From Bolinopsis microptera (taxonomy: Eukaryota > Ctenophora > Tentaculata > Lobata > Bolinopsidae): 64,000 nt of DNA. Below, piece by piece: positions 9,986 through 59,100 of this stretch (positions are counted from its first letter, which is position 1; every line of letters begins with the position of its first letter). Position numbers and translations under genes: made by a program. The notes beneath the pieces were generated by a model that saw nothing but the letters and a program-made list of their open reading frames with translations, ran no database searches and was not told the DNA's origin. The stretch is taken from NCBI RefSeq assembly GCF_026151205.1, contig NC_087077.1:15164983-15228982 (forward strand). Reading direction: 5' to 3'.

Positions 9986-10378
9986 TTACATTAACTTCCA
10001 AGTATATTTTATCCAATCACCTTCATTTACGGACTCAGACAATTGAGTATTTATTTCTGGGTTTTCACGTTTTATTAGAACCGACTGCCACAATTGACGG
10101 TCCATATAGTCTTTACATCTTTTTCGAACTATAAACCGAAACGGTATGTTTGGCATTGAAATGTCTGCATGCTCCTCTAGGTAGTGCTTCCCCATGGCCG
10201 TAGATTTGTTGCCATCCCTTACTGATTTGTAGTGTTCCCAGGCTCTACTTCTTTTAAACCTACCAGTTTCCCCAATGTAGGACTTATTACATATTTGGCA
10301 TATTAATTGGTAGCAAATGTTTTTGGTCATGCAGGATTTATCGCACTGGTAGCATTTGCTGTCACTTTGTATCACAAG
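9986..10378 (-). pseudogene. Penelope-like GIY-YIG endonuclease, left arm copy
   Basis: The minus-strand reading gives KCYQCDKSC, then CYQLICQICNKSYIGETGR, AWEHYK and EEHAD, the signature of the Penelope-like element GIY-YIG nuclease, which nicks target DNA. About 130 residues remain to the stop at 9986. The reverse transcriptase portion is absent. One residue differs from the right-arm copy (CKDYM against CKDYV). The 5' end of the open frame (10379-10450) is read out of the other arm and is not element protein. Confidence 0.85.
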
Positions 10379-10771
10379 TGCAATAAACAAAGTGACAGCA
10401 AATGCTACCAGTGCGATAAATCCTGCATGACCAAAAACATTTGCTACCAATTAATATGCCAAATATGTAATAAGTCCTACATTGGGGAAACTGGTAGGTT
10501 TAAAAGAAGTAGAGCCTGGGAACACTACAAATCAGTAAGGGATGGCAACAAATCTACGGCCATGGGGAAGCACTACCTAGAGGAGCATGCAGACATTTCA
10601 ATGCCAAACATACCGTTTCGGTTTATAGTTCGAAAAAGATGTAAAGACTATGTGGACCGTCAATTGTGGCAGTCGGTTCTAATAAAACGTGAAAACCCAG
10701 AAATAAATACTCAATTGTCTGAGTCCGTAAATGAAGGTGATTGGATAAAATATACTTGGAAGTTAATGTAA
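10371..10771 (+). pseudogene. Penelope-like GIY-YIG endonuclease, right arm copy
   Basis: This has the same C-terminal domain as the left arm, ending in IKYTWKLM and a stop. True element sequence starts at about 10371 (YHKCNKQSDSKCYQC), and the frame upstream belongs to the opposite arm. Cysteine pairs ahead of the GIY-like segment (CYQLICQIC...YIGET) fit the CCHH-type linker of these nucleases. It cannot be functional without its reverse transcriptase. Confidence 0.85.
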
Positions 10772-17892: not shown

Positions 17893-17986
17893 GATGCTCT
17901 CTTGTAGGTTTATAACCTACCAGGACGCGCGCCGAGTTGGACTCGTCGACAAATATTTTACGAGTATCACCCGTTAAGATGCTCTC
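17893..17986. mobile_element. Tiny hairpin-bearing insertion with 9 bp target duplication, copy A
   Basis: A 76 bp insert (17902-17977) starts TTGTAGGTTTATAACCTACC, a perfect 7 bp stem with a 3 nt loop, continues through GGACGCGCGCCGAG and CGAGTTGGACTCG (a second 5 bp stem), and ends ATCACCCGTTAA. It is flanked by GATGCTCTC on both sides (17893-17901 and 17978-17986). The second copy at 53495-53583 differs by two substitutions and a 13 bp indel. There is no ORF, no poly-A and no clear TIR. I cannot assign it to a known class. Confidence 0.8.
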
Positions 17987-18965: not shown

Positions 18966-20520
18966 TTCTATCTTAGTGTGACAGACATATAATGGATAAG
19001 TTCTCGCTACCTAGGATCATCGGCTTCATACAAGCAACATGAAACGATTCCCGGTCACCAAATACGGAGAAAACAAAGTTTAACTTTTTTCTCCACTAAT
19101 TAAAATTTTACCGGGGTAAGCACAGGGCTCCAATGCTCTATCTTACAGTCATTATCTTACGGTCATTATCTATCCAATAGTGATAATGACCACAGCCCCC
19201 TACCTCGCTACGCGTACGAAGAAGAAACACATACCTGTCGCAAGAAGGCCAGTTTACCTTATATTTGCTATTGAAGTTAATGCTTTTTAAAGGATTATTT
19301 TATAAAAACACCAATTTGGGGTTTAGTATTCTCTAGTGTTGGGCCATCCCTTGGGTTGTAGAGGTAGAGCTTATTTGACCGGACATTAAATGAACGAACA
19401 TAATTATGAACGGACATTAAAATGAACGCTCGAAGGCATTGATTAATTTTAATGCTTGGAAAAACAGTGAAGGGGGTATAATAGTATAAAGGGGAAATAG
19501 TATAGTGAGTATAACAGTCATGCTTGCCAGTAATGTGATGTAATTGTATTTATTAAATTATTAATAATTGTAACAATGTCGAAAAGACTGTCTACTGTTT
19601 ACACTGAATGCTTTTCGGATAACTTCAACAATTAACCATAATAATATAAAAGCGTAATTAGCTAAATTGATGCATGCTGTACAACCGCACGTAATGAATG
19701 GAATAACGTATAATTATTATGGTTAGATTCTGTTTTACAGGTCGTTGTAGTAAATTTTTTGCGGTTTTATATCATTTTATTATCAGTTTTATATAAAAAA
19801 ATAATATCGCTCTGGCAGTGGCATGACAGCGTTTCGAGGTGATTTGAAGGACATTAATTAGTCATGGTGGTTATTGCGGTGTATACTTCCGGTGGAATTT
19901 GGACAGAACTTTGTGTAACAAGAAAACAGAAATGCAGCCGCGCGGAGGATGGTTGCTCAACTTCCCGATCCATAATGGCGTCTCATATCATTACATTATA
20001 ATACATATATCACATTATTCCATATTCTCTATTGATAATTGATTAATATGAGAATCGTTTCTATTTCTATTTTCTATGGAACCCTATGCTTATGAATAGC
20101 CTATGAATAGCTTTTAATCAACTAACAAGTTAGGTAACCTTGATATTAATTAAGGTTACCTAACTTGTCGAGTTGTAATAGTGACCTTTATGGACACATG
20201 ACCAAATATTCAGCTGAACCCGGTTCTGGCATTTATAACTTATAATGTTCGGTGGTAAAAGTGCGACGAAGTATTTGCAAACAATTAACTGTTGCCACTG
20301 TAATCTTATAGTTTTAAAGTTAAATAAAGTTTAATCCCTCATGTTTTAATGATCAGATAAACAGGATTAAACAAAATTACTTCAGTGTCAGTGAACAAGT
20401 TAAATTGAAGAAGGAACTGACCGGATATTCGGCTTCAATATCCGGTTCGAACTAGTGGAGTGGGAGTGAGAGATTGAAAAGTCAGGAAATAAAGAGCAAT
20501 TTAAAGCCCTCATTGGATTG
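18966..20520. other. Non-coding stretch
   Basis: No gene is supported. AT-rich DNA with one strong palindrome at 20125-20168. Confidence 0.6.
20125..20168. repeat. Perfect 17 bp inverted repeat
   Basis: ACAAGTTAGGTAACCTT and its exact reverse complement are separated by 10 AT-rich bases. Confidence 0.95.
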
Positions 20521-20534
20521 TCCAATAGCTGCTA

Positions 20535-20650
20535 TTCGTATTCAATATTACCCTATATAGTATATATAGCCTTTCTACATGATGCAACTGTCACTGTGTC
20601 TCGGCTGGAAATTTCTACTTCCAGTTTCAAAACTGAAACTACCACAACAA
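20535..20650. repeat. Dispersed direct repeat, copy 1 (left of the GA array)
   Basis: The segment containing TATAGCCTTTCTACATGATG, CAACTGTCACTGTGTCTCGG and CCAGTTTCAAAACTGAAACT recurs at 22228-22345 in the same orientation. Confidence 0.85.
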
Positions 20651-20655
20651 GAGAG

Positions 20656-21187
<532 letters not shown>

Positions 21188-21883
21188 ACTGTGAGGGAGT
21201 GGAGAGTGCAGAGGGAGAGGAAGGGAATCTTTATTTACAATTTAGCGGTGAAGGTGGAAAGTGAGAAGCTTGAGAGTAAAGCTTGACGGGATGGTAGTCT
21301 CAAATGTAATAGCTAACTGCTAAACATCGTTGGTGCCCACGTTACTTTTAGCTAGTTACAAAATCTTGATTCAGCGACAACTGGATGAGATTCGATGAAC
21401 AATCCGGAAAACTGATAACGGTAAACGGCAGCATTTACAGCATTAACATGGCCATGGGAATGGGATAGTTATCTATAATTATATAAATTCATTTTACACA
21501 TGAGGCTCCAAGAAATCATTAGCAAATAATATATACATCTGTATATATATATATCTGCGAACCTCTGAATCCTATACTTATACTATGCGTAAGGCGTACG
21601 ATCTACTAAAGTACTGACCAGTATAAATTACATACTACTCATTATACGGAATACGGATTCAGACACAACGGTGAACTGATTGCAATGCACGAAATTCTAA
21701 TTTTTACGAGAGATTATGGCTGACAGTGAATAGTGATGCAACATTAGGGTTCCAAACTAAACGCAAGTGTGACTCGGACTTGTAGTTGTCATATTGTGGG
21801 GTCTTACTAATTCGCTCGCCCAAAAATTTCACGTGACTTTGGTTTTTATGGTTTTGCAGCCGTACAAAACGGTTTTACATAAA

Positions 21884-25194: not shown

Positions 25195-25519
25195 CATTTT
25201 TATTTTCAGTGATTTATAAATCACTGATATTATTCGACTATTAGTATTTAGTATTATATAAATGTAATAATAAAAACCCGCTGATCGTTAAGTTGAAAAT
25301 AGTCAAAGCGTGAATCGTGATCAGTGTAAATATGAGCATTGAGCTAGTCCGAGTCGTATCATAATTCATCAAGTTATAGTAGTTGTACAACAATACTAAG
25401 GTATAATGGGACTACTACGGACCCTCTGCCGGATCCAGAGGATGTCACCATTTAACCTTCACACAGACATCGAACACTGTATAAGAAATGCTATATCTTA
25501 CTATATATAAAGCGAGACG

Positions 25520-25850
25520 ATATATATATATTTATTTATCCGCACCATTTTACTGACACCACGGCATCAACTTTAACACGGGTTTCTGCAAAAAACCGTA
25601 CAAGATATAAAACTGAAACTTTTTTAACTAATTCAAATGCTTTAATGGCCTTCAAATCAGCATGAAAAAATTGAAAATTGGCCAAGGAATAAGAATTTTA
25701 GTACCCAAAATTTGGACCCCCAAGTGGTGTCAAAAATTCGAATTAAATAGGTAATAATTATTTTCACTGGGAGACTTTAGAATAGGAAACTGATCCGGCC
25801 ACCAAAGAACCTTGACACCAGTCTTAAAGGTTTGACGGGCTCCTGCTAGT
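25520..25850. repeat. Dispersed repeat R1, intact copy
   Basis: This contains CCATTTTACTGACACCACGG, CAAATGCTTTAATGGCC and CCTGCTAGTA. It aligns along its length with 53445-53878, which carries two extra small insertions. It serves as an empty-site control for those insertions. Confidence 0.85.
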
Positions 25851-51882: not shown

Positions 51883-53106
51883 TTACACATTGATACTCTT
51901 TCCTTCAACACACCTGTTAACACAAATAGTAAAATTGTCAGGTACAGTTCGATTCATCTCAACTGTAACGCTGTGACGATGTAAAAAGCAATATTCGCAC
52001 AAGCAACCATCGTCAGTACTGATGTTACCGATCACATCTTCTACCTTACCCGCCCTCCATACGTCAGCATTATGAATTATAATTACTGGATCGCAATGAA
52101 GTCTAGGTCGAGAGTTGACCTCTTTATTCATCTCAACATTAACAACTGATTCTGTAGCATCGGAAGGACAAAATCGTGGATATTGTACTACCATGTCTGG
52201 TGAACCAACTTCAATTGACGTACTAAACAAATCTCTCCGAAGTCTGATTCCTGCAAGCTCCACAAAGTCCCTAGCAGTCGTTTCGGGGCGATAATTGAAC
52301 ACTTGAACTACTCTCATGAAGTCCCTCTGCAAGCAGTTTCTCAAATCCCCCATCCGCCAAATGTAAATAAGAGGGTTACACAAGGAGTTGAGAAAAACAG
52401 TTACCTGGCGAGCTAAGCTGTATCCATACAACAACATCCAAATGGACATGTTGTCATCGAAATCTGATAAGAGCATCAATTTGTTTTTGGATTTCTGACG
52501 CTGATGAAGAATTCCCAAGAGAAGTATAATGTTGAAAACCAAGCACACAGTTGATAGTGCTATAATAGATATCATTGATTGAACTTTCACCCTGTTTGAA
52601 ATTGAAATCCGTTTGCATCTGCTATTTTTACAAACGATAAGTCGTATAAGACTACAGCAGCATAGTGAGCAGCTTACTAAAATGAAAGGGAACGGTAAGA
52701 AAAGGGACACCATATGATACAGTGCCATACTCGAGTTTATTGTGCGATTACCTCTGTAATACATGTCCGTGCAACTGACTAAGAATTTGACCTAGCTGAA
52801 CTTGACATTCTGTTCATCAACTGCAAAGGGATAACTACAGTAGGGAGTAAGAAAATTGTGATGTCTAATACTAGCACTACAATCATGGTATTTTTGGATA
52901 TCTTTCGAAAGGGGGCACAAACAGCAAACAGGATACGCTCTAATTACGCTTTGAACTGCGACAATGTGAACTGAAGCTCGAGTTAAGAACTTCCAGAGGA
53001 GAGTCCAGATTTTACACCAGAGATGGTTCTGGAACATCAAGGGATCTCTCTGAGACAGCCCATAAAACACGGACAGGAGGCAGATCAAAATATGGATGAT
53101 GATTAA
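51883..53106 (-). pseudogene. Class A GPCR, 5'-truncated and interrupted by one stop
   Basis: In one minus-strand frame from 53106: end of TM2 (ILICLLSVFYG), ECL1 with HLWCKIW (Cys3.25), TM3 (FLTRASVHIVAVQSVIRAYPV), then a TAG at 52794-52792. The same frame then continues through ECL2 (SCTDMYY), TM5 (LFLPFPFILVSC), TM6 and TM7 (FLNSLCNPLIYIW, NPxxY), helix 8 and a C-tail of about 110 residues to the stop at 51883. The DRY position reads IRA and TM6 has no CWxP. A TGA at 53109-53107 and the absence of TM1/TM2 upstream point to 5' truncation or an undetected intron. Apart from the one stop, about 400 codons are open, so inactivation is recent, or the stop is a sequence error or a retained intron edge. 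It is not a paralogous continuation of GPCR 1. Confidence 0.75.
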
Positions 53107-53486: not shown

Positions 53487-53591
53487 GACTTTCCTTGTAG
53501 GTTTACAACCTACCAGGACGCGCGCCGAGTTGGACTCGTCGACGAATATATGGAACAGATATTTTACGAGTATCACCCGTTAAGACTTTCC
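53487..53591. mobile_element. Tiny hairpin-bearing insertion with 8 bp target duplication, copy B
   Basis: An 89 bp insert (53495-53583) is flanked by GACTTTCC on both sides (53487-53494 and 53584-53591). It equals copy A (17902-17977) apart from two substitutions and 13 extra bases (ATATGGAACAGAT region). The homologous R1 copy at 25575 lacks it, so the boundaries are confirmed by an empty site. Confidence 0.85.
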
Positions 53592-53695: not shown

Positions 53696-53755
53696 GAATC
53701 GACGTTGCGAAGCAAGAATGCTAGTTCGCGCGGCGCGTCGAAGTCCTCCAAGAAT
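53696..53755. mobile_element. 52 bp GC-rich nested-hairpin insertion
   Basis: The insert 53700-53751, absent from the R1 copy at 25690, is flanked by GAAT on both sides. CGACG (53700-53704) pairs with CGTCG (53736-53740), and inside it GCGAAGCA (53707-53714) pairs with TGC...TTCGC (53719-53729). It is distinct from the 76-89 bp element. Confidence 0.65.
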
Positions 53756-54136
53756 TTTATATTAGAGCCTAAAATTTGGACCCCTAGGTGGTATCAAAAA
53801 CCCGGATTAAATCTAGGTAATCATTATTCTAGTCTTTTGAGTCTTGACACCATTTTAGGGTTATACGGGGTCCTGCTAGTAATAATAATGCTCACGTCTA
53901 TATTTATAAATACATCTACTGTTCGGTGTTCTGATCAACAGCTGTACGCTCATTATATTATAGTAGAGATTATATATATCCATAGACACAGACCACAGTG
54001 TTTCGTCCTATTCAGTCCTATTCGTGCTTTTAGGATTCATCAGTATTATATGTACCTTACTCGGGAATATTATGACTAGGATAAAGTGGTGGGTTTTGGA
54101 AAATTCCGCCATATTTATGGCTCAAATACGTTTTCT

Positions 54137-56104: not shown

Positions 56105-59100
56105 CTATAGGCCATTATCTATTTCATCTTTATATTTAGCAATCCGTATTGGCGGAATTTCTTTCGGCATAAACTGTTTACCATACTTAGTCATACTGCC
56201 GACAATCAATAGTCTATTCCCTCTAAAATGGGTCCTCAAAACCCCATTAAACATTCCTCGAACCTTGTCTACATTCCACAAATTAAGACACCCAGCAATA
56301 GCCAGTGCTTGCTTAGTTTCTCTGGAATCTCTCTGATAGTAGTAGAGAACTAGTAAGTCCTCTCCTTCAGTTATAAAATGTTGATCACAAGGATTTTCAG
56401 TGTGATCGACCGGTTTAGCCCGTGATATAAGGTCGGATAAAAGCTCACTGTAGGTTTTAGGACCTAGCTTATCTAAACCTTGCAGCTGATAATGCGAATC
56501 CTTTGCTAGCACATGTTCTCTAAAATAACCATTGAAGAACTGGTTGTAGACGTTCGCTCCAGTTTTACCAATGTGATAAGTTCTAGAAACATCCGGGTAG
56601 AGCGTATCTAGACCACGCCCTTTTAACACATCCCTCATGAATAGATCCCAGCTGTATCCTTGACAACATGCCGGCCAGGAAGGTTCAACGACTTCCAGCC
56701 AGAACTTCCTGGATAGTAACCAGCCAAGCCCAGGGAAGAAATCTGTGCGATAAATCATCGTGGAGTCCTTAGCGGAGTGTCCATAACCGTTATCATTCCA
56801 AGCACTTGCACTGAACAGAGTTTTATCTGAACGCAAAACTGGAACTAACTGGCTGAAATAATCGAAGAAGTCAGGACTAACGATCAGATCATCTTCCATG
56901 ATAAAAACAAACTCTTTATCAGGATGCATTGCCCAGAGGACGTCGAGTGAGCGCTTGTAGTTTGTAGCGATATGGTCAGCTTGATTGAATGTGTCTTCTT
57001 TGTGATTTTTAGAATCAGTTTTAGGGAACCTCACCAGTCTTATTCCAAACTGTCTGGCAACAGCGAACGTCTCCAGATCGTAACCATCCTGAAACACTAC
57101 CACGTTCTCAGCCACAAACCCGGGTGCTTTGAAGAAACCAGATAAAACTTGTCGGAGATAAGATCCCCTATCCCCGGCTATAATAGCGATAGGGAAGGTG
57201 CTAGTAACGAAGTGTCCCCCTGTGTTAACCACAGGGTCAGGTATTGCCCATGTCTTCTTACAAAACTCTCCGTAGTTATCATATGTAGCACAGAACTCTT
57301 TATGAGAGGCTGCCAGCACTTCATCATCATCTATCTTGTTGGGAATACACTGGGATATAGCAACAGGGTCAGGCCAGGAGGAAGTGTCAAGTGAAGACTT
57401 CATCGCCTCGTAGGGTGATATTGAGGTTATTCCAACCTGTCCAATAAAGACCCAGCTGTATCTCCAGCCTAGGTCGTAAATCAGGGTACTGCCGAGTTGC
57501 TCTATTGTTTGTTTAGCTTCGTTATTCAGTGCTGTACTCGCTTCGTCTTGTGCTACCATCACTACAAAACGGTCGTCGTTCAGATTCTTTAGGATATCCA
57601 CCATGTCCGTCCCTGAAATTTTTGTGAAATATTAGACAGTTCCGGCAAACATGGAAATCGACAGTTGATTTTTATAGGTACACTGTACAATCTGCACATT
57701 TCCCTTCCGGAACTATATGCAGTGTATAGTATACACGATACACGAAAATCGAAATACATTATGAAACACGCCTCATATGACACTTGGAACATAGTACATT
57801 ATTATTAGTAGTATATTATGGATTGTTATTGGCTGAATGTATTGACAATAAGGAACCTTCATTCCAACTGTTAATTCTAGAACGTTTCTAAGATTGCTTG
57901 ACATTGCTTTATATCAAGTTTCTTAGTCACGCCCACCTATAATGATAATGATAATGACAAAATAGCAGACTATACATATAATTATGATGGTTGTGTACTG
58001 ACACAGCCAAATAAACTGTGTATTGGTTAGTTACTGGGGGAATGATCACAGAGTATTGGAAATTAACCTGCTACACCGATTAAGTAACTTAAGGGGGCAT
58101 ACACCAAATCTGTCCAGACCAAATGACCTCATAGGCAGTTCAGTGACCTTCTAGCGCACCGTTTCCACACCAAAAAAAAATATTTTGAGGATACCCATTT
58201 TTGTAATCGAGCATTTCCTGGTTAGAGTGGAATTTTCGGAAAAACACAATTTGTTTCGTGGAGAGGCTATAAGTTAATCATTTCTTGCGGTATCGGGTTG
58301 AAATTTTGCTCGCCGTCTATTCACATCTATTTCAAGGTGTGTGTAAAATCTTGATATCGTATCTAAAAAGGCTGGTGTGTTATAAATTTTTAAAGTTAAC
58401 AAAAGTCAAAAAGTTGAAATTGTCCTTTTCAGACTTATTTTAACCAAAAAGTCAGTCAGGGAAGATCGGATTGATTTGATGGTTGACATAAACTTGTTCT
58501 CTGAATTCTGGCGCAGTTTTTGATGCCCTCTAAAATGTTTCTCCTCATTTGTGTTCAGATCTATTGGACTTCAAAGCCAAACAACAAATTTAGGCACATA
58601 TTTCATTTTAAATATTTACTGATTTTTCTAAAGTTTTGATAGGAATGTGCTAGTGACTTTGTGAAGGGTGCAAAATAACCGCAACTAGCACATTTATATA
58701 TGAGGTATGAACAACAAAACACCCTAAAATGCTTCCCTTTAAAGTTATGGGAGAAAATGTGATTTTTTGGCTTTGCAGATAAAAAATCACATTTTCTCCA
58801 ATAACTTCAAAGGGAAGCATTTTAGGGTGTTTTGTTGTTCATAACTCATATATAAATGTGCTAGTTGCAGTTATTTTGCACCCTTCCAAAAGTCACTAGC
58901 ACATTCCTATCAAAATTTTAGAAAAATTAGTAAATATTTAAAACGAAAAATGTGCCCAAATTTGTTGTTTGGCTTTGAAGTCTAATAGATCTGAACACAA
59001 ACGAGGAAAAACATTTTAGAGGGCATCAAAAACTGCGCCAGAATTCAGAGAACAAGTTTATGTCAACCATCAAATCAATCCGATCTTCCCTGACTGACTT

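Follow-up and report, generated by a model that had tools for sequence, protein, structure and literature searches.

A 64,000-bp stretch of the Bolinopsis microptera genome (C6:15164983-15228982 in an assembly of 232 contigs totalling 264.65 Mb; hereafter, the window) carries two very short elements of similar sequence, each flanked by a direct duplication, and the question was what these elements are and how they arose. Copy A, a 76-bp mini element at 17902..17977 (+), was read with exact 9-bp target-site duplications (GATGCTCTC) at 17893..17901 and 17978..17986. Copy B, an 89-bp mini element at 53495..53583 (+), was read with 8-bp duplications (GACTTTCC) at 53487..53494 and 53584..53591. Both copies, with both exact duplications, had been placed at these positions by the first-pass annotation, and re-reading of the sequence agreed. 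A 31-bp core of A and B gave two matches in the window (≤3 mismatches) and none in 100 shuffles. The two copies had been called almost identical, which holds for their outer arms and not for their internal joining points. Copy A consists of 49 bp of a parental left end (17902-17950) and 29 bp of the right end (17949-17977), with 2 bp common to both arms; copy B consists of 50 bp of the left end (53495-53544) and 39 bp of the right end (53545-53583), joined without overlap. What had been missed is that the element consists of both ends of a parent measured in kilobases, fused at a joint that is usually copy-specific.

Copy B is located inside a dispersed repeat, of which a diverged paralog was found at 25512..25762 (+). 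The site near 25575 had been offered as an empty-site control for copy B; the element is indeed absent there, but the target, GGGTTTCT, agrees with GACTTTCC at only 5/8 bases (alignment by eye). Cleaner empty paralogs were present in loci L073 and L117 (...GACTTTCCGCAAAAACC...). Since these have a single GACTTTCC and lack the element, copy B is a precise 89-bp insertion that duplicated 8 bp of its target. For copy A, the fetched loci and the window yielded no empty site. To the right of copy B, a GC-rich stretch at 53700-53760 (GAAGCAAGAATGCTAGTTCGCGCGGCGCGTCGAAGTCCTCC), possibly another micro-element family, was seen again in many of the fetched loci (L063, L064, L065, L080, L090 and others).

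The description of the element as GC-rich held only moderately, with copy A at approximately 46% GC (counted by eye) compared to 32-40% in 4-kb blocks across the window. Two hairpins had been noted at the left end and are present in the sequence, the first of them a palindrome, GTAGGTT-TAT-AACCTAC, at 17904..17920 (+) that forms a stem in the computed fold. The RNA folds were no better than those of shuffled sequences (+ strand, z of 0.00 and -0.87; - strand, z of -1.35 and -0.75), and a functional RNA fold was rejected for the mini element on these unremarkable scores. The statements that the element has no poly-A, no open reading frame and no clear terminal inverted repeat (TIR), and that its copies show low divergence, were judged to be right. 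Elsewhere in the window, two nearly identical 154-aa open frames lie on opposite strands at 9986-10450 (-) and 10307-10771 (+), with a GIY-YIG match that falls below threshold (E 0.033). A long AG-repeat tract at 20470-21290 produces spurious Arg-Glu and Ser-Leu open frames, and two long open frames at 51883-52791 (-) and 56105-57631 (-) resemble those of a receptor and a glycosyltransferase.

Only two copies had been reported, a picture that did not extend to the genome. A left-end 31-mer (≤2 mismatches) matched 2250 genomic sites (1079 and 1171 by strand) and a right-end 25-mer (≤1 mismatch) matched 2855 (1378 and 1477 by strand), these being counts of end sites and not of whole copies; read-backwards controls for both searches gave 0 sites. 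There were no exact matches to the left-end 31-mer in viral contigs. From the fetched loci and the window, 83 mini copies were taken that had a left anchor with ≤5 mismatches, a right anchor with ≤3 and 15-110 bases in between; one copy, cut by the end of its locus, was dropped, leaving 82. Loci L002-L047 had been picked because they resemble copy A, which biases them towards short forms, and L048-L077 followed list order on contig C1. Diverged copies and copies with deleted arms fall outside the 82, for example one in L095 that is only 51 bp long yet has an exact 8-bp duplication (ATTTAAAA). In L047 one copy was nested within another. Element length showed no helical phasing in 40 copies (10.5 bp, P = 0.73).

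Exact duplications of 8 bp flanked 26 of the 82 mini copies and exact duplications of 9 bp flanked 11; these 37 support the earlier view that the element is mobile DNA and duplicates 8-9 bp of its target. A further 10 copies had an 8-9 bp duplication with one mismatch. Exact matches of 7, 10 or 11 bp were absent (0/82), and one of 6 bp was found. When right flanks were shuffled, matches with ≤1 mismatch averaged 0.5 at 8 bp (maximum 3) and 0.2 at 9 bp (maximum 2). In the remaining 35 copies, a duplication of 8-9 bp could not be recognised at the edges set by the script. Some of these have altered ends, such as the copy in L031, where the duplication lies seven bases further out; age may account for the rest.

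A search for longer elements that share these ends had also been proposed, and it yielded 11 long copies with matching duplications. Left ends that ran on into GGTAGGTAGAAATACG numbered 22, and right ends preceded by TTTCGCCCGTACAATATATGGAAC numbered 23 (≤2 mismatches in each case); pairs of such ends in the same orientation, approximately 4-17.5 kb apart, defined the long copies. All 11 had duplications of 8-9 bp, exact in 10. In the set of ten pairs, nine duplications were exact (eight of 8 bp and one of 9 bp), and the tenth pair, on C6, had a 9-bp duplication with one mismatch when its true left end was used. The eleventh long copy (L096/L083) had ACATAACA at both sides, so that nine of the 11 duplications were of 8 bp and two of 9 bp, one of these with a mismatch.

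Three of the 11 long copies (L096/L083, L098 and L117) were read whole and the remaining eight at their ends only. Inside the 8.5-kb long copy, L096 holds approximately four tandem copies of a unit of about 0.9 kb, and the L096/L083 element had no open frame of 90 aa. L117 held a frame of 147 aa that contains a FLYWCH zinc finger (E 7.7e-10). It was rejected as the family's own transposase because this part of L117 corresponds to another Mutator-like element, in L118, which has an intact 474-aa frame and lacks these ends, and because it is missing in the aligned parts of L096 and L098; a protein search with the 474-aa frame found a match in L117 alone among L096, L083, L098, L117 and L087. The intact frame is a FLYWCH-MULE (Mutator-like element) open frame at L118:2895-4319 on the - strand (G000:C1:13851500-13858500), and shortened relatives, accompanied by short repeats of the type GTAGTGATTCAGTCCG, occur in L117 and L119.

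The arms retained in the 82 mini copies measured 35-57 bp on the left and 24-41 bp on the right; the minima are partly set by the anchors (35 and 22 bp), and the maxima are not. The maxima lie close to where two palindromes, read by eye in the longest forms, have their inner edges (left, CAGGAC...GTCCTG; right, AATATTTGGAACAAATATT). An unselected sample was formed from the first 30 exact left ends in list order on a single contig, C1. It comprised 24 mini copies, three long copies (classed by the sequence after the end), one form of about 200 bp (204 bp) that held other repeats and two broken copies. Among the 24 mini copies 22 joint strings were different, forming 21 clusters when differences of ≤2 substitutions were merged, and the most conservative reading gave approximately 17 distinct joints (range 17-21). 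On reading, a 93-bp joint was common to seven of the 24, barring substitutions and small end changes, and the copies in L069 and L076 belonged to a single duplicated segment. The full set of 82 copies had 75 different middle strings (56 clusters after the same merging).

This diversity was also present in copies with ≤1 change in 57 arm bases, where 46 of 50 middle strings differed (38 clusters); by type, 21 of 23 differed among G copies (18 clusters) and 25 of 27 among A copies (20 clusters). Two segments duplicated together with their element, on the other hand, had kept their joints. The 1.1-kb pair L069/L076 had the same joint despite 38 mismatches in 1119 columns, as did a duplicated pair within L093 with 5 mismatches in 196 columns. 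The joints also agreed in the trio L034, L036 and L037, which at 99.6-99.9% identity is uninformative; the evidence for joint stability consists of two informative duplicated pairs. Because copies with near-identical arms differ and older duplicated segments keep theirs, the joint appears to have been formed at or before insertion and to have been fixed thereafter.

These results bear directly on whether the family is an ordinary set of miniature inverted-repeat transposable elements (MITEs), in which a deleted master of approximately 93-97 bp was copied faithfully and its palindromic centre then gained insertions and deletions in each copy. The mini copies do resemble MITEs in general, being short, non-coding pieces from the ends of a longer DNA transposon, present in many copies and flanked by target duplications. 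The 93-bp form was the commonest length (11/40 copies outside the similarity-chosen set), and many joints are readable as insertions or deletions of 1-20 bp in it. MITE families usually have one deletion joint and TIRs; here, most copies have their own joint, and one common internal structure was not found, even though the 93-bp form recurs. The variety of middles between almost unchanged arms, and the two duplicated segments whose joints persisted at approximately 3% mismatches, make faithful copying of a master unlikely.

The joints themselves were also compared with simulated random joins. Under strict matching, 25 of the 75 distinct middles were clean joins, with 22 distinct breakpoint pairs, and their overlap averaged 1.04 bp compared to 0.50 bp in the simulation (P = 0.0014, n = 25). 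The other 50 middles scored as filler or substituted arms; a looser count classed 46 of the 82 mini copies as clean, and several fillers looked, on reading, like copies of nearby sequence. As judged from these sequences, the signature resembles that of microhomology-mediated end joining.

We consider it probable (at roughly 70%) that the element is a non-autonomous, TIR-poor and probably Mutator-like DNA transposon, with a centre that was deleted and end-joined at or before insertion. A transposase supplied in trans, probably Mutator-like, would cut the target with a stagger of 8 or 9 bp and so give rise to the duplications, acting on element ends that are unlike one another (TTGTAGG... and ...CGTTAA). 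Each micro copy combines up to 57 bp of the left end and up to 41 bp of the right end of a parent of several kilobases, the interior having probably been lost through breakage near the palindromes followed by end joining. Mini copies may each derive afresh from a long element, or they may be re-cut whenever they move. Healing of the break with short microhomology or fillers would give most insertions a joint of their own. Mobilisation in trans had already been suggested in the first-pass annotation, probably correctly.

A related but rather doubtful possibility is that unlinked left- and right-end fragments are paired and inserted at one target, after which host microhomology end joining closes the gap with a new joint each time. 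Such split-end transposition would be like laboratory tagmentation, in which separate ends are inserted together, and the arm lengths that are kept would correspond to the transposase footprint. This route would gain favour from the stiffness of duplexes shorter than 100 bp, which do not readily bend into the loop that a two-end complex requires. It is less probable again that each mini copy marks the former site of a long element whose excision gap was refilled from the ends only and then joined. Abortive gap repair of this kind predicts unique joints with correct duplications, and the long copies are indeed few, at 22 and 23 extended ends, compared to thousands of ends. However, it should leave a spread of sizes, and the 30 left ends of the unselected sample fell almost wholly into the mini and long classes, with a single 204-bp form and two broken copies; in addition, none of the 82 copies retained more than 57 bp on the left or 41 bp on the right, in an extraction that allowed up to 110 bases between the anchors. 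Derivation from a SINE, or from a small RNA gene by retrocopying, might be suggested by the small size and the hairpins but is scarcely credible. The constant length of the duplications and the existence of long parents already contradict it, as do the missing poly-A, the 8-9 bp size of the duplications and the retention of both ends around a variable middle. Searches of the window against Rfam (gathering score) and for tRNAs gave no matches, and an RNA-gene origin was rejected. A hammerhead-type ribozyme was considered as well and dropped.

For the deleted, end-joined transposon that we favour, the class of the transposase had been hinted to be hAT or Mutator. The Mutator half of this suggestion fits the duplication length, and hAT membership is disfavoured because 11 of the 37 exact duplications were of 9 bp, where hAT elements give 8 bp, and none of the 150 scored hits to the hAT domain PF05699 (of 365 candidates) lay, by eye, inside the 11 long intervals. 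The MULE domain PF10551 gave 88 hits, with all 131 candidates scored, and again none was seen by eye in the 11 long intervals; the long copies that were read yielded no transposase of any class. Non-autonomous copies may lack one, and an autonomous member may therefore exist. Two other MULE loci, L120 and L121, had no matching ends. Duplications within the 8-11 bp expected of MULEs were found in mini, long and sister copies (for the last, see below). Long TIRs were absent, the tips TTGTAGGTTT and TTAACGGGTG agreeing at 5 of 10 positions by eye. Membership of the Mutator group, which rests mainly on duplication length, would be consistent with the mixture of 8 and 9 bp, since this matches the MULE families of Aedes and since MULEs without TIRs exist.

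In the parts of the literature consulted, Muta1 and the other Mutator-like elements of Aedes aegypti have duplications of 8 or 9 bp, as reported for all 14 MULE families (PMC5225508). Muta1 is also similar in its many non-autonomous derivatives with common ends and heterogeneous interiors and in a palindromic end motif; it differs in its 145-bp TIRs and its longer, often foreign interiors (PMC5225508), whereas the present element has no TIRs at its tips and nothing but a joint for an interior. The Tm1 Mutator/Foldback elements of root-knot nematodes are described as having 8-10 bp duplications (mostly 9 in Tm1), MITE-like members and asymmetric outer motifs, and in these respects are alike; their tandem-repeat TIRs set them apart, and the end sequences differ (PMC3169594). 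On our reading, the tandem motif of Tm1 looks nearer to another MULE of the B. microptera genome (L118 and L119). As in the accounts of the non-TIR MULEs VANDAL and Curupira, a Mutator-like duplication length occurs here without TIRs, with the difference that such families are defined by their transposase (PMC6446971), and none was tied to the present element. Merlin shares duplications of 8 or 9 bp, but has TIRs with a terminal GG, unlike the tips TTGTAGG and TTAACGG found here (PMC8101967). At title and abstract level, in a search that mostly did not reach subscription papers and so leaves absence unproven, no description of this family or of copy-specific joints was found.

A second, related family was found in the flanks, with a left end TTGACCATTGTTAATGATC... 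and a right end ...GACGAGTAACATCCGTCAA; it had no match in the window. By eye, 15 of its last 18 bases agreed with those of the first family, and its left and right tips agreed with one another at 13 of 19 positions. Among 23 copies met by chance there were 22 different middles (20 clusters), and the duplications were exact and of 9 bp in seven, exact and of 8 bp in two, present with one mismatch in five and absent in nine, compared to shuffled-flank means of about 0.3. These sister micro-elements (TTGACCATTGTTAATG...GACGAGTAACATCCGTCAA, mostly 88-135 bp) occurred in L025, L053, L054, L084, L093, L094 and other loci. Since a related family behaves alike, a one-off accident is unlikely as the origin of the variable joints.

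In another comb jelly, Mnemiopsis, a GC-rich motif containing two CpGs is reported at loop anchors, and more than 90% of looped promoters contain DNA-transposon insertions (PMC12221973); micro-elements like the present ones might conceivably supply such a motif.

Internally deleted transposons are common; what is unusual here is a copy-specific joint between near-constant ends. So large a natural set of joints could map the minimal ends that the transposase needs, and the joints could record germline end joining in a comb jelly. They also pose a testable question, namely whether both ends of a transposon must sit on one DNA molecule for joint insertion.
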